Below are positions 771-22,590 of a stretch of 22,590 nucleotides of DNA, piece by piece (position 1 is the stretch's first letter; each line of letters opens with the position of its first letter). The DNA comes from a virus. The position numbers and the translations under genes were made by a program. The DNA is taken from IMG/VR virus record IMGVR_UViG_3300025168_000728, positions 1 through 22,590 of that record. One strand, given 5' to 3'. Below the pieces are notes generated by a model. That model did no database searches, had not been told where the DNA came from, and saw only the letters and a program-made list of their open reading frames with translations.

Positions 771-940
771 ACTGCGCCCCCTCCCTGTATTACCATATTT
801 GGTATAAGATTAACATCGGTAGCTGAGCCACCTGATATGTGTTGTAGGTTGGTGTACTTAGTGAAAGCACTCCCTCCGTCTATTTCCTCACCCTTAACTG
901 TTCTCAGCTTGATGAGGGCTTCTTTGTCTACTGTTTCCAT
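758..940 (-). CDS. 60-aa protein, paralogue of the spike C-terminal module
   Basis: The start is ATG at 940, preceded by GGAGGGGGTGCAGT within the end of the spike gene. The frame overlaps the spike gene by 13 bases and overlaps the following fibre gene by 13 bases. Residues 22-60 align without gaps to the last 39 residues of the spike: both begin GG-x-A-x-T-x-Y, keep Q and S-x-G in register, and end in GGGAVW plus two residues (14 of 39 identical by my count). Two GGSA motifs (residues 22-25 and 37-40) resemble short beta-strand repeats seen in phage tail proteins. The function is unknown. It may be a free copy of the spike tip or adaptor domain that helps mount the fibre. The overlaps at both ends and the strong Shine-Dalgarno support real translation. 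Confidence 0.7.
761..877 (-). repeat. Copy 2 of the 39-residue GGxA...GGGAVW module
   Basis: This stretch codes for residues 22-60 of the 60-aa protein and is a diverged duplicate of 931-1047. The DNA is best conserved over the last 18 bases, GGAGGGGG[T/C]GCAGTATGG, which differ at one position. They encode GGGAVW and at the same time supply the Shine-Dalgarno and ATG of the next gene. Confidence 0.75.
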
Positions 941-2187
941 ACTGCACCCCCTCCTGTGAGAATGATGTCTGTTGTGGGTCTAGGTGAGGCTGAAGTGCCA
1001 CACGATACGTTTTGCATGGCTAGGTACACGGTGTAAGCGTTGCCACCGTACAGGTTGCTAATTGTTCCACCCTGCGCCCCTTGTTCCCCTTCTGGACCTA
1101 CTGGCCCCTCAGGTCCGACTACTGTCGAGTCAGCACCTGTATCACCAGTTTCACCTTTGTCTCCTGCTGGTCCTGTGGAGCCTACGTCACCTTTGGCTCC
1201 TGTGTCGCCCTTAGCTCCAGTAGCCCCTTGGATACCCTGTGCCCCTTCTGGGCCTGTGGGTCCGGTGGGTCCGGGTACGTTAGAGTCCTGACCATCAGAT
1301 CCGGGTAACCCCGGAAGTCCTATGAAGCCTGATGGACCCTGTGGACCTGTTGGTCCTTGTGGTCCTACTGCCCCGTCTACTCCGTCTTCCCCGTCTTCAC
1401 CGTCAGCTCCATCTTCACCGGCTGGGCCTGTGTCTCCTGCTGGTCCTGTTGCTCCGGGTGCTCCGGGTGCCCCTGTTGTTCCACCTGATCCTGTGTGTAC
1501 AGAGTTCACGTAGTCAACTGTCGCGGCTGATGAGCCACCTGCCATAGTTAGGCCACTGATTGCATTACTGTTCATGTTCAAGGGTCCAACCTGATTGGTG
1601 TCCCCTATGATAGCTAGGTCAGCTGTAATGGTTGCTGTGCTTGCGTCCACAGTCATACTGGGAGCTACGATCTCTACCTGCCCGTCCATAGTAGCTACGA
1701 GCTTATCTGGTCCTGCTATGTCGATCACGCCACTCTCACGGAGAGAGATGTACTGAGTGAGGTCCATGTTTCGGAACTCAGCATCAGTGGCGCTGTAGTT
1801 TTCTATTGCTCGCGGAATAGGATTCAATCCTACGATAGCGAAGCCATCCTTGTCTGAGAACTTACGGCTGAGCCAAGGAGCTGCTGCGCCTGAAATATCT
1901 CCAGCCAAATCCTTATTCTCGAACATCCAGTGGTCGTAACCGAACTGGCTGAACATTAGCAGACAAGTATCATCTGGTTGTATGGGCATGGTGATGGAGT
2001 AACCTCCACCACTTGCCGTGTGTACCGGGACGTGCAACAAGTGGGTGTTCTCCACTCCTTCGTCAAGGGCATCTGTACTGCTATGTAGTCTCTCCCCTGA
2101 TATCAGTATTGTTGCTGTCTGATTCTCAGGGAAGTACTCTACAATGCGTCCCGGCATTACTATCTTATAGTCTCCCCAATTTTCCAT
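928..2187 (-). CDS. Baseplate central spike (Gp138/gpV-like) with collagen extension
   Basis: This 419-aa protein is a fusion. Residues 1-125 look like the OB-fold N-terminal domain of Gp138-type spikes: KIVMPGRIVEYFPENQTATI, then ITMPIQPDDTCLLMFSQ. Residues 150-195 carry beta-repeat text typical of gpV/gp5 spikes (VEIVAPSMTVDASTATITAD). Residues 204-229 match the recurrent phage fibre motif with N-x-I-x-x-L and a final VDYVN. Residues 239-373 are collagen triplets with two register breaks (G-x-D-S-x-V-x-G at 299-306 and 351-358). Residues 381-419 form a C-terminal module repeated in the next gene. It follows the Dit-like gene by one base. Spikes are trimers at the tail tip, and collagen is also trimeric, so the symmetry fits. 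The OB-domain family name rests on motif reading and gene position. Confidence 0.8.
   Translation of the reverse strand: MENWGDYKIVMPGRIVEYFPENQTATILISGERLHSSTDALDEGVENTHLLHVPVHTASGGGYSITMPIQPDDTCLLMFSQFGYDHWMFENKDLAGDISGAAAPWLSRKFSDKDGFAIVGLNPIPRAIENYSATDAEFRNMDLTQYISLRESGVIDIAGPDKLVATMDGQVEIVAPSMTVDASTATITADLAIIGDTNQVGPLNMNSNAISGLTMAGGSSAATVDYVNSVHTGSGGTTGAPGAPGATGPAGDTGPAGEDGADGEDGEDGVDGAVGPQGPTGPQGPSGFIGLPGLPGSDGQDSNVPGPTGPTGPEGAQGIQGATGAKGDTGAKGDVGSTGPAGDKGETGDTGADSTVVGPEGPVGPEGEQGAQGGTISNLYGGNAYTVYLAMQNVSCGTSASPRPTTDIILTGGGAVWKQ
931..1047 (-). repeat. Copy 1 of the 39-residue GGxA...GGGAVW module
   Basis: This stretch encodes residues 381-419 of the spike and is duplicated at 761-877. 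It directly follows the collagen stretch, so it may serve as a trimerisation cap or an attachment point. Confidence 0.75.
1069..1473 (-). repeat. Gly-X-Y collagen repeat region of the spike gene
   Basis: This stretch encodes residues 239-373 of the spike, about 45 triplets. An acidic part (GEDGADGEDGEDGVDG) lies near its start, and two one-residue interruptions use the same motif as the fibre gene. Confidence 0.9.
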
Positions 2188-3347: not shown

Positions 3348-4322
3348 CTACTCCCATTGAGTTCTTTGGAACCAAGTAGCCCCTACGGGTGCCCTTGTTC
3401 CTGTTTGTGGTGAAACACAGTTAGCCGTGGTAGTCCAAGACCCTGTGTAGTTGCTTCCTTGATGTATTGATTCCAGTACCAAGAACTTGCTATACCCGGA
3501 CACTGAGTCCCGTGCATAGTCGTTAGCTGTCTGAAGTACAAAGTCGTCAGAATCTGCTTCAGCTGTCAGTAACTTAGTAATGTCAATCACAGCTCCCGGC
3601 TGTATGTCACCGTCCAAGTTAGATATTATCTGTAACTGGGCAGGTGACAACTTTGGGTTCGCTCTCATGTTATTTGTATCTAACACTATGGTGGGTTTAT
3701 CGTCAAGGTCGGTAAGTTTAACCTGATCCAAGCTGGGTTGATAAACTAACTGTATAATATCATCCCCCAAGGTATACCACTTAAAGCCGTACTCTTTTCC
3801 TAGCTCCCTGAGTATCTGAGTAAACGTACCGTTCATTTGTGACCCCGGCCTTTTAGACTTGGCGTCCATCAAGCCTTCAGGGAATACCAAATCCTGGAAC
3901 TCCCCTTTCCATTTTACCGCTTCCTTCAGTGATTGAAGTCGAGACCTCAAGCTGCTGGAGTTTACTGGTGCTGATATTGGTTTCTCGTAGAAGTCACGCC
4001 TAGCACCAGAGTAACAATACAAACTTGTTATTGTGTCTGGTACTTTCTTGTGGTCCATCGAGTTGCTGATGTAGAAACCGTCAACCATATTAAACTCCTG
4101 ACTTCCGTGTAGCCTAGTGCTCAGGGTTATGTAATGATCTTGGTTTCCACCAATCAAGTTACCAATCGTTTCTGCGTTCAGGTTATAGATAGTTATCTTA
4201 GCTCGTGAGAACTCAGGCAGCTGTCTGTAGTCAAAGTCTATACGAAGACCGGAGGCATCTAAGATGCCCACCCCGTCCTTGCTCTGTATAGTGACCATAA
4301 CCTCTTGTCCAAATCTTTTCAT
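3348..4322 (-). CDS. Baseplate hub-like protein
   Basis: This 324-aa protein is encoded immediately after the tape-measure-position gene. It opens with FGQEVMVTIQSKDGVGILDASGLRIDFDYRQLP and then SRAKITIYNLNAETI. That text is typical of gp27/gp44-like hub proteins and their siphophage counterparts, in which a first beta-domain states that the particle stands for relations between field variables and axes. A middle region (TFTQILRELGKEYGFKWYTLGDDIIQLV) fits the second hub domain, and VIDITKLLTAEADSDDFVLQT plus a C-terminal beta segment (KFLVLESIHQGSNYTGSW) the third. The start at 4322 follows the previous stop closely. The expected role is a trimeric hub that receives the tape measure and carries the spike. 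The fold assignment is inferred from pattern and order. Confidence 0.6.
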   Translation of the reverse strand: MKRFGQEVMVTIQSKDGVGILDASGLRIDFDYRQLPEFSRAKITIYNLNAETIGNLIGGNQDHYITLSTRLHGSQEFNMVDGFYISNSMDHKKVPDTITSLYCYSGARRDFYEKPISAPVNSSSLRSRLQSLKEAVKWKGEFQDLVFPEGLMDAKSKRPGSQMNGTFTQILRELGKEYGFKWYTLGDDIIQLVYQPSLDQVKLTDLDDKPTIVLDTNNMRANPKLSPAQLQIISNLDGDIQPGAVIDITKLLTAEADSDDFVLQTANDYARDSVSGYSKFLVLESIHQGSNYTGSWTTTANCVSPQTGTRAPVGATWFQRTQWE

Positions 4323-4336
4323 TTTAAACTCCGAGG

Positions 4337-7300
4337 CTATAGGCCTTGATTTGTACTGTAGTTAGAAGGAACTTCGCCGCCCTCTATAACTTTCTCCTCT
4401 ACGTCGAGGCCTTGTTGGACATTTACGACGACGGTAGTGTTATTGGTAAGTGGGTCTTCTCCGACTTTGACAGGATCTACAACAGCAGGTATGTTGCCCA
4501 TGCTCTCGTTAGGCATTGTACCAGTCCCAGTCATCACAAACCTACCAGCATTCTTCAACAAAGTTCCCGGATCTAAAGCTGCGTCAGCCAGATCCGAAGA
4601 CAACTTAGCTCCGAATGCAGATCCTTTAGTCATTCCGAAAGAATTAGTGGCTAATGTGACAAGGCTCCCAGCAAGATCAGTAATCATACCGCCTGACCTA
4701 AGTTTCTCTTTCTTCTGCATTGCAGCTGCGTTGTATGACATTAGAATACTTGCTTCGATTGAAGCTTCGCTAGTCTCATTAGGAGTAAGACCCATTTGGA
4801 TCTCTTCTTCCTTATGATCAACCTGAGCAGATGCACCATGTCCAGCTGACTTTACAGGAACTTTGTAATGCTCAAGCACTAGGTTATCTATGTTAGATAA
4901 GTTTCCTTCTGGATCATATATAGCCGCTTCTGATAACTGAAGAGCGTTAAATATATAAGCCCGGTTCTCTGGAGTCCAACCCATAGATGCTGATGCTACT
5001 TTATGTGCCAGCTCCTGAACAGAGGGCTTTGTTGCGAAGTAGTCATTGGAGAATATTTTCTTAGCCCTTTGAGTTTCGCTGTTCAGTGATAAAGCTCGGT
5101 TCACCTTCTCATAGTATGCAGCCCTAGACTCAGGTTGCTGGATCTGCTGAACTACGTCACCAACCTGCTGTAGAGCCTTACGAGACTCTTGTTGAGTCAT
5201 GCCGCCTATCTCCCACTCTCGTGTAAGGTTGGCTGCAGCATCAGTGGTAGTTCCTGCCCTAATGCCCATTGACTTGTAGTCTTGAGCTTTATCAATACCA
5301 CTGGCCTGTGCATCTACTAGATCCTTCATTGCATCAGTGAATATACCAATGATGAATGCTGAATCTTTTATGGACTTCTTAAACTTACCGAATGCACCAG
5401 AGTTGTTACGTGCCTCTACCTCACGCTCACGTTCAATCTGAAGAGCTTGGCCGTGTGCAGAGTTCAGTTCCTTCTGTATAGAAAGGGCTTCCCTCTTGGC
5501 TTCACGTTCTTCTTCGTCAACTTGATTGTTAGCACCCATAGCCTCTTCCTCTACACCCTGCTGCTCCTTATTCTTTGCAGCCTGAGCTGCTAGGAGTGGT
5601 GCGTTCTTGGCATCGAGGTCCAACTTACGTTGGTGCTTGATTGCTTGCTTGTGTGATTTAAGTATTTCAGACTCTTGCTCTTCTTTGTTCTTCTTGTCGT
5701 ACTTCAACTGTCTTGCCTGACCAGCTGCGCTAGCGACAGAACCTAAGTCGATGTCTGTATCATCCTCTTGGAAAACGGGCATGGCTCCTTCAGGCTGTGG
5801 CCCAACGAACTCAAACCTTGCTTCATTCCCGCTAACTTTATTCGCAGCTGTGGTTTGAGAGCTGCGATTACCTGTCTTCTGTTGTGCTATTACTGCTCTC
5901 ATATCCCTTATCCCTACTACGTCTGTTACTTGCGAAGAAATAGATTGTGATATCTGGCTGGCTTTAAATAGCCTTTCCTGATGATCCAGATCTGCTTCTA
6001 TCGTGTGTTGCGAGTATTCGCCTGTCTCCGTATCGAGGACTGCTAACGTAGCGTACTGCTCGTTTGCAATCATCATCTGCATTTGCATTTGGTCTGTGTA
6101 TGTCTTAAGTGCCTTACTAGCTGACTTGGTGCCAAGGAACTTAAACTCTACCACACCTAAACTGTTACCCTCTGCATCGAAAAGTCTGCCATCGGGTGAA
6201 GCACCCATACCTGCATACTTGTCGTTGACCTCGAAGATACCTTCACGGAACTGAGCACCTTTGAAAGCGCCTCCGTGTTTCTCACCGTACTGTTGTATCT
6301 CTGACATGAAGGCACGTTGTACTTTGCCCTCACCTACGTTACCGGCTTGTGTAGCTGCGTTGCCATAGAAGGGATCGTTACCCTTGCTACGCCAACCCTT
6401 AAGCCCTTTAGGATCTAGCCTCTCCTCTGCTGCATGGAGACCCCTAACTAATGGGTTACGCAACAGCTTAGTAGCCATAGACGCTGTGTCCCGGCCCTCA
6501 CGGAGTGCAAACCATTCAGGTGTCCTTTGCTCAGGCGCATGTCTTAGCTGCTCGTCGTAGTGCTCTAGGTCAGTCCTGTACGGACCGAACCTTGGAGCTG
6601 CTAAGTCAGCTTGCTCTGCGGCTATCAGATCGTAGTCAGCGGAAGCAGGGTTCAGTGCTTGCTCGTAAGCTAGCTCCGGTGAAGCCCCTTCCAACAACAT
6701 GTTTACGAATGTAGATGTACCGGATGTAGTTCCAGTAGTATCACCGTGCATAGTACTCCGGTCTGAGCCACTTACTGCGTCTATCTGAGATCCATACGTA
6801 GCGGTAGGTACATACCTCTCTCCGTGCTCATCTATCTGTGCTGCTGCTACCTGTGCGCTTTGCCTTTCCCTGTGCTCTATTTGTACCCTGTCTCGGTCAA
6901 GGTCGTAGAAGGCAGCTTCGTTATTAGCATTAGCGCCTAAGGATGCGATAGGTGTGTGTCTACCTGAACGTCCTTGGCCGTCTATCTCGTCCTGCAATCC
7001 CGGCATCACCCTAGTGTAGTACTTCTTCAGTGCCTTAAAGTCTCCGTACAGCTCATCAACCTGTTCCTTTTGTTTAGCTTTGGCTACACGAGCAGGACTT
7101 CCCTCAGGAGAATCCTGCCAGTCTTTCAGGTCTATGTCTGCGTCAATAGGGAAGAAAGTATTCGCCACGCTAGGCTGGTACTGAGCTAACTTCCATTCAT
7201 CGCTTGTACCTACCAAATGATTAAGCTCGCCACCGGGGGCTATAGCCTCTGCGTAGCCAAGCCTAGTAAATGGTGTGGTGTTGTTCGCCCCACGGAATCC

Positions 7301-8407
7301 ACCGAAGGTAGGTACAAGACCTGTAATCTGATGCCTGTCTCCGTCGTCACCAGCAACGCCCAAGAACATTTCATTGGGCATCCCTATTAAGGACTTGGCA
7401 TCTACACTCGGTCCTGTGAACAACCTCTCCACTACAGCTTGTTGAGTGGACTCGAACCTAGCTTTCTGCACTTGAGGCAAACCATTCTTTGTGTTCTCTG
7501 GTATGTAAATTCCAGTGACCCTATTTAGCTTGGCTTGCATAATCCTAGCCTCTTGCTTCTCATCTTCGAGTCGGAAGTCTGTAGCCATTGACCCACGCGC
7601 TACTCCAGAGATGTTGTAATTTTCCATTTCGGATATAAAACCCAACGCCATAGAAACATCAACTGAATTTGGCCCTACGGCAGTCTTGGGTAAATTATGT
7701 ATCATCACTTCCCCATGAAGACGACGCTCAGCTAAGTAACTGGTTTCATCCTCTGAGGGTGGGGCGTTGTGCAACCTATCCTGTTTTGGAAGGTCTGGAC
7801 TGTAGTACTCGTTCATCTCCGGGGTAAAGGTAGTTACCGGTCCCGGTCTCTGATCAATCATTAGCTCAGCTTGTACGTTGCCTAAGTGTGCGAGATCAAG
7901 AAAGGCTGCATCAACTGCAACCTGATCTAGTGAGGCCACACGAGAACCGTCTAGGTTTTTATTGGCTAAGTCCTTTACTACGCTCTGTTGAGCTAGGGTA
8001 TATCCAGCAAGCCTATTGGCTTGTACTGTCCTCTGGCTCGGCATACCTACGTCTAAGCTAGTTGCCATTTCACTGTTGTCGTTCATGACCTCTCTAGCTT
8101 CCGCACGTTTGACTGATGCTTTCAGTGTTTTAACTTGTGCGGATCTTGCCTTCAGCTCTTCAGGAGTCTTGCTTTTCTTGAGGCTAGTGATAGCAAACTC
8201 TAGTTGATCCATCTGGGTTTTGAGGGAATCTTCCATGCTTGTTGATCGCTCAGTCTCGTAACCGAAACCGAATCCATCCTCGAACTCGCCATCAATAGAT
8301 CCTTCATTGTCAAAGGAATCATACTCGTTCATCATGGCTTCGTCTTGTCTTAAATCTGGGGAGTCACCATCGTCCCCGTCGTGTCCTTCGTAAATATCAT
8401 CTGACAT
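4337..8407 (-). CDS. Tape-measure-position protein with embedded YqaJ-like nuclease domain
   Basis: This 1356-aa protein is the longest in the window. It lies just after the frameshifted chaperones and before the baseplate genes, which is the standard place of a tape measure. Residues 1-60 are very acidic. Residues 623-830 resemble a YqaJ/lambda-exonuclease domain: QRTPEW (627-632), R636, TAS (641-643), a G-x-x-x-E at 693, ASPDG with D739, VVEFKF with E754 and K756, and MQMQM with Q775 and Q777. Residues 901-1000 are highly charged and probably coiled coil. Residues 1005-1160 are helical and similar to other tape measures. Residues 1239-1295 are mildly hydrophobic. I found no cysteine in the whole protein. 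GGAGG lies seven bases before the start at 8407. The tape-measure call is an inference from order, and an alternative is an ejected virion nuclease. Confidence 0.75.
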   Translation of the reverse strand: MSDDIYEGHDGDDGDSPDLRQDEAMMNEYDSFDNEGSIDGEFEDGFGFGYETERSTSMEDSLKTQMDQLEFAITSLKKSKTPEELKARSAQVKTLKASVKRAEAREVMNDNSEMATSLDVGMPSQRTVQANRLAGYTLAQQSVVKDLANKNLDGSRVASLDQVAVDAAFLDLAHLGNVQAELMIDQRPGPVTTFTPEMNEYYSPDLPKQDRLHNAPPSEDETSYLAERRLHGEVMIHNLPKTAVGPNSVDVSMALGFISEMENYNISGVARGSMATDFRLEDEKQEARIMQAKLNRVTGIYIPENTKNGLPQVQKARFESTQQAVVERLFTGPSVDAKSLIGMPNEMFLGVAGDDGDRHQITGLVPTFGGFRGANNTTPFTRLGYAEAIAPGGELNHLVGTSDEWKLAQYQPSVANTFFPIDADIDLKDWQDSPEGSPARVAKAKQKEQVDELYGDFKALKKYYTRVMPGLQDEIDGQGRSGRHTPIASLGANANNEAAFYDLDRDRVQIEHRERQSAQVAAAQIDEHGERYVPTATYGSQIDAVSGSDRSTMHGDTTGTTSGTSTFVNMLLEGASPELAYEQALNPASADYDLIAAEQADLAAPRFGPYRTDLEHYDEQLRHAPEQRTPEWFALREGRDTASMATKLLRNPLVRGLHAAEERLDPKGLKGWRSKGNDPFYGNAATQAGNVGEGKVQRAFMSEIQQYGEKHGGAFKGAQFREGIFEVNDKYAGMGASPDGRLFDAEGNSLGVVEFKFLGTKSASKALKTYTDQMQMQMMIANEQYATLAVLDTETGEYSQHTIEADLDHQERLFKASQISQSISSQVTDVVGIRDMRAVIAQQKTGNRSSQTTAANKVSGNEARFEFVGPQPEGAMPVFQEDDTDIDLGSVASAAGQARQLKYDKKNKEEQESEILKSHKQAIKHQRKLDLDAKNAPLLAAQAAKNKEQQGVEEEAMGANNQVDEEEREAKREALSIQKELNSAHGQALQIEREREVEARNNSGAFGKFKKSIKDSAFIIGIFTDAMKDLVDAQASGIDKAQDYKSMGIRAGTTTDAAANLTREWEIGGMTQQESRKALQQVGDVVQQIQQPESRAAYYEKVNRALSLNSETQRAKKIFSNDYFATKPSVQELAHKVASASMGWTPENRAYIFNALQLSEAAIYDPEGNLSNIDNLVLEHYKVPVKSAGHGASAQVDHKEEEIQMGLTPNETSEASIEASILMSYNAAAMQKKEKLRSGGMITDLAGSLVTLATNSFGMTKGSAFGAKLSSDLADAALDPGTLLKNAGRFVMTGTGTMPNESMGNIPAVVDPVKVGEDPLTNNTTVVVNVQQGLDVEEKVIEGGEVPSNYSTNQGL
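5858..6535 (-). other. YqaJ/lambda-exonuclease-like PD-(D/E)XK domain within the 1356-aa gene
   Basis: This stretch codes for residues 625-850. The order of motifs matches the YqaJ family: QRTxEWxxxRxGxxTAS at the start, a conserved Glu (E693), then D739, E754-x-K756, and a Gln pair (Q775, Q777). The D-X14-ExK spacing is normal for this fold. All presumed metal-binding and catalytic residues are present, so the domain may be active. Domain edges are approximate. Confidence 0.75.
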
Positions 8408-8424: not shown

Positions 8425-9011
8425 TTATGTTGGTGATGAAACAGATCTACCGTGTTGTTGTATCTCTGCTATTTGGTGCATTGTCTCTAGGTCGGCTATT
8501 GTGTAAGTGCCGTCCTTGAGTTGGTGTAGCTGACACATGGGAGGATTCATAAGTAAAGGTTTCAGTAAGTACCCGTTGAGTTCTGGATAGATCTCGTTGT
8601 AGTCAACGGGCATTAGTGTCTCTTCCCCGTTGCTTATTTGCTGGGGGAGGGTACCTTTGCTAAACCTGATGCGAAAAAATCAGCGTACTGTGCTGCTATT
8701 ACGTGTGCGAATATCTCAGCCACGGACTTAAGGTCTCCCTCAAAGTACTCGTCTACCTGAGCTGGTTGTAGTTTGTCTCCGCTAATACGGACTTGACAGA
8801 TAAAGTGCTTAATCAAAGAAGCCGCTTTTGCCGGTTCTTTAGTTTCCATGATCGCTACGATCACAGCTGGTATGTTTAGTTCAGCAATAGCTATCACTGA
8901 GTTGGTTCCTAGAATCTGTCCTGCTTTCGCCAAGTTCTCTAGCGATACGTCAACGGGCCAGTGTGGGATATAGATCTCCCGCATGTCTTCAAGCGTGGCT
9001 GTGTAGGCCAT
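8425..9011 (-). CDS. Tail assembly chaperone GT, -1 frameshift product
   Basis: The first 112 codons are those of the 125-aa chaperone G. At the heptamer T-TTT-TTC (8679-8673) a -1 slip gives TTT-TTT-CGC. The frame then runs through RIRFSKGTLPQQISNGEETL with no stop into the ATG at 8613 of the downstream 62-residue frame, which stops at 8425. The product is 195 aa. I followed the codons base by base through the junction. The G/GT arrangement just before the tape measure is conserved in long-tailed phages, where the T part binds the tape measure and the G part binds tube subunits. The 62-residue frame alone (8425-8613) starts with MPVDYNEIYPEL but has no obvious Shine-Dalgarno at normal spacing, which favours frameshift expression. 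Confidence 0.82.
8634..9011 (-). CDS. Tail assembly chaperone G
   Basis: This 125-aa protein is the unshifted product and is expected in excess over the GT fusion. It starts at 9011 with GGAGAG about six bases upstream. The sequence is largely helical (IPHWPVDVSLENLAKAGQIL, PAKAASLIKHFICQV, SVAEIFAHVIAAQYADFF), as is usual for tail chaperones, and does not resemble a virion protein. The slippery run lies at codons 111-113, near the end of the gene. The unshifted tail is only ASGLAKVPSPSK. A transcription terminator precedes the gene. Confidence 0.8.
   Translation of the reverse strand: MAYTATLEDMREIYIPHWPVDVSLENLAKAGQILGTNSVIAIAELNIPAVIVAIMETKEPAKAASLIKHFICQVRISGDKLQPAQVDEYFEGDLKSVAEIFAHVIAAQYADFFASGLAKVPSPSK
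8673..8679 (-). promoter_or_regulatory. Programmed -1 frameshift site T-TTT-TTC
   Basis: This is a perfect X-XXY-YYZ heptamer in the zero frame of chaperone G: the codons are GAT-TTT-TTC before the slip and TTT-TTT-CGC after. A weak five-pair stem (TCCCC with GGGGA) about 25 bases downstream could act as a stimulator, but this is uncertain. Confidence 0.8.
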
Positions 9012-9080: not shown

Positions 9081-9599
9081 CTATACGAAAGTAGAAGGTG
9101 ACTCAGTAAGAGCACCAGCCTGATCAAGATCTCCACCCGTGTTACGGTCGAAGACAACTTTCTCAAATGATACAACCCAAGTAACGATGTTCATGGTCTG
9201 ACCACGAGACATAGCTGGCATAGCCAGTACAACTCCGTTAGTCATATCACAAACGTCTTTACCCATGTTGTCTACAAGCTTAGCCTGAATAGGCGTAACC
9301 AGTTTTCCGTCAGCGTCTGCTTGCTCTTGGAAGTAGTTAGCGAAGTCTTGCATGTACTTGTTCTCAGGTGCATTCATAAGCACGCTGAAAGTCATGTCAC
9401 CAGCACGGATGCGCTGCATAGACACAACCATGTCACCGTAAGCGCCGAACTGAGTCGTTGCGATAGGTGCGCGTCGTGCGATGTTTACTAGGTTCTCGCC
9501 AGCTCCGTAACCAGTAACCTTAAACTTCTTAGGGTTCTGAGTGTTAGGGTAGTCCATCTCGATGATGAGGTCTACATTGGCAAAGCTATATTGATACAT
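9081..9599 (-). CDS. Tail tube protein
   Basis: This 172-aa protein is encoded immediately after the sheath, the normal place for the tube in contractile tails. The sequence has the beta-rich pattern of tube proteins: YSFANVDLIIEM, an early FKVTGYGAGENLVNIARR, then VVSMQRIRAGDMTFSVLMNAPENKYM, and a final VLAMPAMSRGQTMNIVTWVVSFEKVVFD. The MTFSVLMNAPEN text is typical of small phage structural proteins paired with DUF3383 sheaths. The start at 9599 has AAGGA eight bases upstream. A stable hairpin lies in the gap before it and a terminator follows it, suggesting a highly expressed unit. Confidence 0.8.
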   Translation of the reverse strand: MYQYSFANVDLIIEMDYPNTQNPKKFKVTGYGAGENLVNIARRAPIATTQFGAYGDMVVSMQRIRAGDMTFSVLMNAPENKYMQDFANYFQEQADADGKLVTPIQAKLVDNMGKDVCDMTNGVVLAMPAMSRGQTMNIVTWVVSFEKVVFDRNTGGDLDQAGALTESPSTFV

Positions 9600-9638: not shown

Positions 9639-11114
9639 TTACTCCGAGAAGGAACCAGCTACTTCAACTTCGTGAAGTGCTCCAGCTCCTGCCATTACAA
9701 AGGACAGACCCTTGTAGATGCGGTTGCTTACGTCACCAGCGGGGGTGTCGGCAAGTGCCACAGCAGTTACTCGGTATCCTTTAGGAAGGAAAGTACCATC
9801 AGGTAAGAAACCCGGAGCAGCCAATCCGTTACGGACCGCAGCTTCCAGAGATTGCTCAAGAGTAGAAACACAAATGTTTATACCAGTCTGAGTAAAAGGA
9901 ATCTTAGTGTTGGTGGTGTAGAGAAGGTTGAACATGTCAGCTTCACATCGAGCTTCCAACCACATCAAACCGTGGGTGGTGTCGAGCCATGAGCCAGAAG
10001 CCATACGGCTATCTGTGTAAGCGTTAGTGCTTTTGCCAATTAGAACTACAGCAGAAGCGTACTTGTCTCGAAGTACAGCGAACTGTGCAGGTGTCAGATC
10101 CTCAGAAGAGACTCCGGGCATTTGCTTCAGGTTCAAAGTAATAGTAGATCCAACAGCAGCAAAGTTGACTGAAGCAGCACGGCCAAATACAGAAGCACTT
10201 GGGTACTGAGAGTCGTTCTTGCTGAAAGTGGTAAGGGTGAATCGCAAAGAAGCAGCCTTAAGTACGGATGCAACGTCACCTTGGTTAGAGCTATCAAGTA
10301 CGCTCAGGTCATTAGTAGTGTTCATGAAGAGCTTCTTAGCAGCTTCACACCACTGAGCTATCTCTAGTACAGTGTGTCCTTCTTGAACCAAAGTAATGTC
10401 ACGGTAATCTTTGTGAGTTACAGTGCCGACCCATTCAGCGCCAGAAGCTAAGTTAGCTGCCAGTGCGTCAACAGGAGTCTCGGCATCCAAGCCACCAACA
10501 GAAACTGCAGTGTGAGCTTCAAGGCCCAGAGCAACAGCAACGCTTCCAGTAGCGGGAGTGATAGCTCCTGTAGATCCAGCAGTAGCTCCGTAAATTACGA
10601 ACCTTCCGTCGTATGCAACAGAGGAGCCTGAAGCACCACCGGCGTCTAATGCGAGGGCTAGGATGGTTGCACAGTCTGAAACAGAGGTGGCTATAGAGAA
10701 GTCTATGCCGCCTGAGGACAGATCAATTTCATTTCCGTCGATAGTAATAACGAGGTCACCGTCAGCAATAGCTTTGAGTTCAAGCAAGGCTTCAGGTGTG
10801 TCTGCGAAGACTGGGCCACTAATTGCAGCTGGCTGGTCAACGGTGTATGACATAAGGACAACGAAGTCCCGTGGGGTAGGTGTCTGTGCATAGAAAGCTG
10901 TAGCAGCCTTGTATACTTCAGAGCTTGCTGTCCAGTCGTTACCGACAGAAGCCAAGCTAGTATAAGAACGTGAACGCTCTGCAGAGTTGATGGGGTTAGA
11001 AGCTGTGTCGGACTCCTTGGTTAGAAAACCAAGTACGCCAAAGTCGCCAGCTGTTACACCAACAGGGGATACAGAAATGCTTACGTCAGCGAATTCAGTG
11101 ATTTCAATCGCCAT
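9639..11114 (-). CDS. Contractile tail sheath, DUF3383 family
   Basis: This 491-aa protein matches the DUF3383 pattern throughout. It has an N-terminal VSISVSPVGVTAGDFGVLGFLT and a middle insert rich in Gly, Ala and Thr (residues about 115-215) that may be a surface domain. The conserved C-terminal half includes NLKQMPGVSSEDLTPAQFAVL, GLMWLEARCEADMFNLLY, KIPFTQTGINI and LEAAVRNGLAAPGF. DUF3383 proteins act as sheaths in several contractile-tail phages. The start at 11114 has AAGGA at good spacing, within a 13-base leader shared with the decoration gene. A hairpin follows the stop, and the tube gene comes next. This gene is the main reason to call the phage a myovirus. Confidence 0.88.
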   Translation of the reverse strand: MAIEITEFADVSISVSPVGVTAGDFGVLGFLTKESDTASNPINSAERSRSYTSLASVGNDWTASSEVYKAATAFYAQTPTPRDFVVLMSYTVDQPAAISGPVFADTPEALLELKAIADGDLVITIDGNEIDLSSGGIDFSIATSVSDCATILALALDAGGASGSSVAYDGRFVIYGATAGSTGAITPATGSVAVALGLEAHTAVSVGGLDAETPVDALAANLASGAEWVGTVTHKDYRDITLVQEGHTVLEIAQWCEAAKKLFMNTTNDLSVLDSSNQGDVASVLKAASLRFTLTTFSKNDSQYPSASVFGRAASVNFAAVGSTITLNLKQMPGVSSEDLTPAQFAVLRDKYASAVVLIGKSTNAYTDSRMASGSWLDTTHGLMWLEARCEADMFNLLYTTNTKIPFTQTGINICVSTLEQSLEAAVRNGLAAPGFLPDGTFLPKGYRVTAVALADTPAGDVSNRIYKGLSFVMAGAGALHEVEVAGSFSE

Positions 11115-21692: not shown

Positions 21693-22590
21693 TCAGACAA
21701 AGAAAAGTTGCACGGATTTTAGAATAGCGGGATTCCAGTCGCCTTGTGCGGGTGGCTCAGGTAGCTCCACATTGTATCTAGTTACCCAGTACATGCGTAG
21801 TTCCTTCATCCAATTACCCGAATAAAGCTCCTCGAAAGTCTCCGTAATCATCTTGTACAGCTTGCTTTTATGGTTAGCATGTGTGCTGAAAGAGTCATGA
21901 ACGAATACCATAGGTAGTCCAGCGTCCCGTAGCCTTGCAGCTACCATCCTAAGGTGGGTCGCGTCAAGTGAATGTATCACATTAGGTGCTATTGCCGACC
22001 TGTTCTTGGAGTGTGCCGGTATCTGACCGGAGTAATCCATGATTGTAGAGGTAAACAAGTCCTTGTTGCTCAGAAAAACAGCAACTCTGCGCTGCTCCCC
22101 AATAACTTTACGCTGTTTACACTCGAATCCGTCCGGGGTAGGCCAGTGGATGTCCGGGTTACCAGCTCGTGAGATAACATCTGCACAGTCTGTGACCCAA
22201 TCTACCGCCGCCTTCAGATCCACGAGGGTATCCTGCAGGTTATCGTAGAGACCAGCCCCCAATCGCCCAGCTTCAGCCCTGCTCAGCCCCGGTGTGGTAA
22301 CAATCCACTCCTTAGCCTTGCGATCCCATCGGCGCTTCTCGCCAAATTGCTTATCCAACCACTCCATAGAGGTCATTCTTGTTGCATTATAGCCCCAAGT
22401 CATGGTAGGAACCTTCGCAGCCTTGCGGGTTGCGTAGTGCTTGTGGGTCTCAGGTAGGGTATCGGCCCAGTCATCAGCCACTTTCTCGTATATATCCCGG
22501 TCAGCTTCCACCAAAGACATCCCTATATGGTCTGAGATGCTCTCAGATCGCGTGAGAGCGCTCCAATGCTGTAAGCCAGAACAACGCCCG
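21693..22590 (-). CDS. T7-type single-subunit RNA polymerase, partial (5' end beyond right edge)
   Basis: The frame is open across the right edge, so the ATG at 22520 is internal. The 298 visible residues begin GRCSGLQHWSAL, the counterpart of the T7 sequence just after catalytic D537 (that codon is outside). TRKAAKVPTMTWGY aligns with the T7 O-helix: R627, K631, M635, T636 and Y639 are all present. IAPNVIHSLDATHLR matches the H784 region, and VFVHDSF carries the second catalytic Asp (D812 in T7). The C-terminus ends in LFFV, similar to the T7 foot. The visible part is shorter than the T7 equivalent by about 48 residues. The enzyme would transcribe phage genes from its own promoters. Confidence 0.95.
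   Translation of the reverse strand, partial: GRCSGLQHWSALTRSESISDHIGMSLVEADRDIYEKVADDWADTLPETHKHYATRKAAKVPTMTWGYNATRMTSMEWLDKQFGEKRRWDRKAKEWIVTTPGLSRAEAGRLGAGLYDNLQDTLVDLKAAVDWVTDCADVISRAGNPDIHWPTPDGFECKQRKVIGEQRRVAVFLSNKDLFTSTIMDYSGQIPAHSKNRSAIAPNVIHSLDATHLRMVAARLRDAGLPMVFVHDSFSTHANHKSKLYKMITETFEELYSGNWMKELRMYWVTRYNVELPEPPAQGDWNPAILKSVQLFFV

Follow-up and report, generated by a model that had tools for sequence, protein, structure and literature searches.

The tape measure protein of a myovirus lineage carries in its interior a genuine exonuclease domain of the lambda Exo/LHK-Exo type, whose active site is complete, and this fusion is a fixed trait of the phage family Chaseviridae and of its uncultured relatives. 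The domain was recognised in a window of 22,590 nucleotides (the whole stretch of DNA that was analysed, taken from IMG/VR virus record IMGVR_UViG_3300025168_000728). That the tape measure of this lineage serves as the carrier of an active, virion-borne exonuclease, which would refold after ejection and act on DNA ends at entry, appears to us an evenly balanced proposition.

The window contains a myovirus structural operon on the minus strand, whose head part encodes a terminase, a portal, a head maturation protease, a cement protein and the major capsid protein, and whose tail part encodes a DUF3383 sheath, a tube candidate, a TAC_15 chaperone, a 62-aa ORF, a 1356-aa protein, a baseplate hub, a Dit-like protein and a collagen-like fibre. 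The features on which the argument depends are the following:

3348..4322 (-): baseplate hub, the next gene after the tape measure (phrog_196, 4.4e-19)
4337..8407 (-): tape measure protein with internal exonuclease domain, 1356 aa (open frame; position between chaperone and hub; full-length relative in contig L010)
5870..6553 (-): YqaJ/lambda-Exo type PD-(D/E)XK exonuclease domain, residues ~619-846 (Pfam, PHROG, AlphaFold2, Foldseek/VIA-align, profile against PDB)
8634..9011 (-): tail assembly chaperone (Pfam PF21822 Phage_TAC_15, 4.7e-11)
9081..9599 (-): tail tube candidate, KPP10_Orf10 family (Pfam match)
9639..11114 (-): contractile tail sheath, DUF3383 (Pfam and PHROG matches)
21693-22520 (-): T7-like single-subunit RNA polymerase gene (RNA_pol, 1e-34)

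The 1356-aa protein is the tape measure by position, by exclusion and by the annotation of some of its homologues, since its uninterrupted frame is the sole long ORF of the interval between tube and hub. Its full-length relative in L010 is 34-35% identical to it. No transmembrane segment above a hydropathy of 1.2 was found in the window protein; a full-length model of the counterpart in contig L011 (with a mean pLDDT of only 53) is mostly helical outside the nuclease and includes one helix of more than 50 residues. The RNA polymerase gene lies upstream of the structural operon, beside the packaging genes, and is possibly cut by the end of the record, which is a fragment of a genome. Such a T7-like polymerase gene is a hallmark of the Chaseviridae (PMC8472413), and both it and the contractile-tail gene order of that family, with a Chaseviridae-like sheath (best isolate match, the Chaseviridae phage VPs20, at 39%), are present in the window. 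In several of the uncultured relatives, RNA_pol gives one strong match and a second, weaker match in another frame.

Two further observations concern the neighbouring genes. Between the chaperone and the tape measure lies the 62-aa ORF, at 8425-8613 (-), with its own ATG; the corresponding gap in the uncultured relatives spans ~200-240 bases, and small ORFs occupy this place in several Chaseviridae; a second tail chaperone is a possible identity. A partnership of the ORF with the nuclease is not evident, because its counterparts in phages GJ1 and ST32 are 98% alike whereas the tape measures of the same two phages are only 76% alike. At 3-770 and 928-2187 (-) of the window are two fibre-like genes with collagen repeats, one of which has an Mtd_N (major tropism determinant) domain.

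An initial annotation, made from the letters of the window, had assigned residues 625-850 (correctly mapped to positions 6535-5858) to a YqaJ/lambda exonuclease-type nuclease, and profile and structural comparisons bear that assignment out. The Pfam-A family PF09588 (YqaJ) matches residues 631-782 over profile positions 1-148 of 150, with 25.1 bits against a curated cut-off of 22 (E 2.4e-5), and PHROG 434, a RecE-like exonuclease, matches residues 676-969 (E 2.6e-7). A single-sequence phmmer search of the PDB placed LHK-Exo at the top (E 0.011); with a profile of eight domain sequences, LHK-Exo was matched at E 8.5e-22 and lambda Exo at ~1.5e-3. The AlphaFold2 model of residues 602-877 (mean pLDDT 76, pTM 0.75) contains the alpha-beta-beta-beta-alpha core fold; Foldseek ranked LHK-Exo (3sz4) first for it, at E 2.6e-8, and lambda Exo next, and VIA-align gave Z scores of 16.1 and 15.9 against these two enzymes over 177-184 residues.

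The residues that make up the active site could be placed individually, as follows:

6500..6502 (-): R636, aligned with lambda Exo R28 in the profile alignment (R in 24 of 24 proteins)
6479..6481 (-): S643 of the TAS motif, aligned with lambda Exo S35 (S in 22 of 24, T in 2 of 24)
6329..6331 (-): E693, catalytic acid (lambda Exo E85; E in 24 of 24, and in 66 of 66 covering proteins of a wider set)
6191..6199 (-): S737-P738-D739, metal-ligand motif (lambda Exo S117-D119; D in 67 of 67 covering proteins)
6140..6148 (-): E754-x-K756, catalytic motif (lambda Exo E129-x-K131; 67 of 67 covering proteins)
6077..6091 (-): Q773-x-Q775-x-Q777, glutamine motif of the last core helix (Q773 and Q775 invariant, Q777 not)

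In the domain profile alignment R636, S643, S737 and D739 fall on R28, S35, S117 and D119 of lambda Exo, in which R28, S35 and S117 hold the 5'-phosphate; the window domain shares with lambda Exo and LHK-Exo (PF09588) its fold, its catalytic residues and those of the 5'-phosphate pocket. The catalytic E, D, E-x-K and Q are identical in all 24 aligned proteins, and the catalytic residues are invariant in each of the 67 different proteins whose sequence spans them (66 of 66 for the first E), a set drawn from three clades (28 uncultured, 26 Cleopatravirinae-type and 13 Nefertitivirinae-type). Of the catalytic residues originally proposed, E693, D739 and E754-x-K756 stand, and the glutamine pair, given as Q775 and Q777, has to be moved: the invariant glutamines are Q773 and Q775, and Q777 is replaced by G in the Cleopatravirinae. 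An apparent absence of K756 from GJ1, VPs20 and PVN03 was traced to gap placement, the E-x-K being visible in each. A profile match is therefore present, the fold is the right one and the homologues retain D739, E754 and K756, so that none of the three findings named at the outset as fatal to the assignment was encountered.

Homologues with the same fusion were found both in uncultured relatives and in Chaseviridae. The fusion occupies the same position in uncultured contigs L002 and L010-L016, and the nearest isolates, as judged by hub and sheath, are Chaseviridae. That link was drawn through hub and sheath; the window protein is too diverged from its Chaseviridae counterparts for a whole-protein search to detect them: tblastn of the entire protein against isolates returned only one YqaJ gene, which is not a tape measure. 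A scan of bacterial genomes yielded no relative of the window protein. Within the Chaseviridae, YqaJ is matched in the tape-measure-position proteins of phiEcoM-GJ1 (gp62, 3.8e-11) and 4HA13 (7.4e-10), and in that of VPs20 at 0.0012, which falls under the cut-off in a protein scan and over it in a genome search; gene position, YqaJ domain and all catalytic residues are shared between the window protein and the Chaseviridae proteins phiEcoM-GJ1 gp62, 4HA13 gp67 and ZPAH14 gp34 (phrog_19855, phrog_149). The cultured carriers include the E. coli phages phiEcoM-GJ1, 4HA13 and flopper, and tblastn with GJ1 gp62 retrieved 72 phage records at a coverage of at least 80%.

Since a nuclease query necessarily finds a nuclease, the hub protein was used as an independent bait in a search of IMG/VR, and 21 loci were examined, some of which the nuclease search had previously returned while others were new. 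The nuclease domain was present, at E 1e-35 or better, in all 19 of the hub-selected loci that contained enough of the upstream gene. The nuclease-bearing ORFs form two classes, namely complete fused proteins of 1137-1428 aa and stand-alone proteins mostly of 200-400 aa. No YqaJ match was found elsewhere in four complete genomes of isolates and seven near-complete genomes of uncultured phages; the tape measure nuclease is the sole copy in those 11 genomes, and is therefore not a spare one. In two Chaseviridae-like records (L141 4360-7505 and L143 4300-7991) the fused gene lies in two overlapping frames, through either sequencing error or a real frameshift, and these split ORFs were counted as fragments rather than as losses. 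An assembly chimera or a chance motif match might be suspected in a 22.6-kb IMG/VR virus record that is not an isolate genome; the recurrence of the fusion in phages that were cultured and sequenced, as well as in numerous independent contigs (those selected by their hub among them), rules out such an artefact almost completely.

The domain has been visible in databases, where homologues of GJ1 gp62 are variously labelled tail fibre, virion structural protein, tape measure, endonuclease or hypothetical, and where ZPAH14 gp34 is already labelled exonuclease with a yqaJ note. PHROG 149 (1242 positions) is named exonuclease, yet its match to VPs20 starts at residue 1 of the tape measure. The Chaseviridae tape measures at L089 6232-9951 and L090 9015-12845 (PHROG 149, phrog_19855) are filed partly under 'exonuclease' (DNA metabolism) and partly under 'head and packaging', a split that makes automatic annotation of the gene misleading. 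Despite this visibility, no paper describing a nuclease-bearing tape measure was found in the open-access literature. Tape measures are known as rulers, as membrane channels and as cutters of the cell wall, and their known enzyme domains (SLT transglycosylase and peptidase) are, to our knowledge, all cell wall-acting. An SLT domain lies near the C-terminus of the GJ1 and 4HA13 tape measures (1.8e-7 in 4HA13), as in the Cleopatravirinae proteins that were scanned, whereas the window protein has none. The enzyme is in both cases carried in the tail by the tape measure, but the window domain should act on DNA.

Within the tape measure, conservation is highest in the nuclease region in all three clades, with mean pairwise identities (nuclease against its two flanks) of 45% versus 30% and 24%, 64% versus 54% and 52%, and 60% versus 46% and 41%; its dN/dS of 0.08-0.26 is usually lower than that of the flanks. 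These values bear upon the suggestion that the fold has been reused structurally, as a spacer or DNA-binding plug in which catalysis no longer matters. A tape measure is a structural protein, and dead enzyme domains are often reused; however, the catalytic residues are all invariant in the 67 proteins, as in active enzymes, in the face of an overall sequence divergence to 21-35% identity. The retention of the active site across such deeply diverged phages, in what is the most conserved region of the protein, speaks against mere structural reuse, which is judged improbable.

The nuclease block also appears to be mobile. The tape measure of MLP1 (L105 1842-5537, compared with those of GJ1 in L089 and TH37 in L103) is TH37-like overall and carries a GJ1-like nuclease block at residues ~401-680; the block is 98-100% identical to that of GJ1, and identity to TH37 is 39-75% inside it and mostly 90-100% outside. 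The tape measure genes of flopper and GJ1 have independently been described as having low similarity (PMC7552041). The exchange of the nuclease block as a cassette, by recombination among Chaseviridae tape measures, is well supported. Swapping of this kind is typical of modules in conflict, and it lends some weight to the reading that the nuclease, once ejected, turns on foreign DNA within the infected cell, be it host plasmids, damaged chromosome ends, or the genomes of competing or superinfecting phages at the same entry sites. Mosaicism of tail genes is, however, common in phages; it may be neutral, or may result from host defences by which tape measures are recognised. Bulk degradation is unlikely given the few copies per particle and the need for free DNA ends; an attack on foreign DNA is regarded as rather unlikely.

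In a tree of the domain the Cleopatravirinae stand apart from the other two groups, an arrangement that needs two changes and does not reject a single origin (AU p 0.25). Profile alignment of the two Chaseviridae subfamilies runs from the nuclease on into the C-terminal part of the tape measure; comparison of the window clade with the Chaseviridae recovers mainly the nuclease, with a weak C-terminal extension in one case and the nuclease alone in another. Because the AU test keeps a single origin and the alignment between subfamilies extends into the C-terminal part, one ancestral fusion is the simpler reading. An independent fusion in each clade, which would accord with the two changes on the tree, was set aside on the same two grounds.

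The lumen of a tail has only about half the width of a folded lambda-Exo ring, and the domain is therefore expected to be extended while in the tail and to fold once ejected. The ring's width, together with a location in mid-protein that would be expected to place the domain mid-tube, argues against an action of the nuclease before ejection, in virion assembly (for example, on the packaged genome end in the upper tail), and we consider such an action improbable. What favours it comes from siphophage JBD30, whose tape measure is reported to form a trimer in the tail channel that probably holds the DNA end and is expelled ahead of the DNA (PMC11445458). During injection, the lambda tape measure has been labelled near the inner-membrane complex ManYZ (PMC13190303). 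Both findings also speak for delivery of the domain with the tape measure. For the Chaseviridae, LC-MS/MS of 4HA13 virions named the tape measure second of twelve proteins, at the level of the whole protein (PMC9699118), and the gene concerned (38683-42297) encodes the YqaJ domain.

That an active nuclease is delivered together with the tape measure is held to be somewhat probable. The domain would lie extended or unfolded within the tail tube and leave it before the DNA does; with the C-terminus in front, the Cleopatravirinae transglycosylase would come out before the nuclease, and the nuclease before the DNA. In the cell the domain would refold, possibly into a ring-shaped trimer like that of lambda Exo, and would degrade the 5' strand, starting at a DNA end located at the site of entry. 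The phage's own genome is a tentative candidate for the target, favoured because the few copies in a particle would match one or two DNA ends more readily than host DNA in bulk. In its most specific form, which we put forward as a doubtful proposal, a ring-forming 5'-3' exonuclease delivered at time zero would resect the entering genome's own end, and the resulting 3' overhang, a poor substrate for RecBCD, would shield that end and ready the terminal repeats for pairing; a terminal direct repeat of 3120 bp is predicted in 4HA13.

Several observations count against this resection of the phage's own end: (i) a separate early gene for a 5'-3' exonuclease is present in the Chaseviridae, so end resection would be possible without the tape measure domain; (ii) it is not obvious why an enzyme confined to its own DNA would require its block to be swapped between phages; and (iii) the usual partner appears to be missing. 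Lambda Exo normally works with an annealing protein; it and LHK-Exo are stand-alone early recombination enzymes so partnered, whereas the window domain lies inside a late structural protein. In a lambda Red-type pair the annealing gene stands beside the exonuclease, but here the neighbours are a tail chaperone and a baseplate hub, with no annealing gene. Searches that leave room for divergent kinds gave no match to a RecT or ERF annealing protein in four genomes, nor to a Rad52-type protein in 11, and this negative result counts against the proposal.

The recognition of this domain allows the annotation of scores of records, now labelled tail fibre or hypothetical protein, to be corrected, and a direct test of its function is possible in E. 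coli K-12 with phage flopper. A conserved and catalytically complete exonuclease in the tape measure of a whole culturable phage family would imply that DNA processing is coupled to genome entry; if this is true, a DNA-processing step is performed by the injection machine itself, and the viruses of this family probably bring a DNA-processing enzyme into the cell along with their genome.
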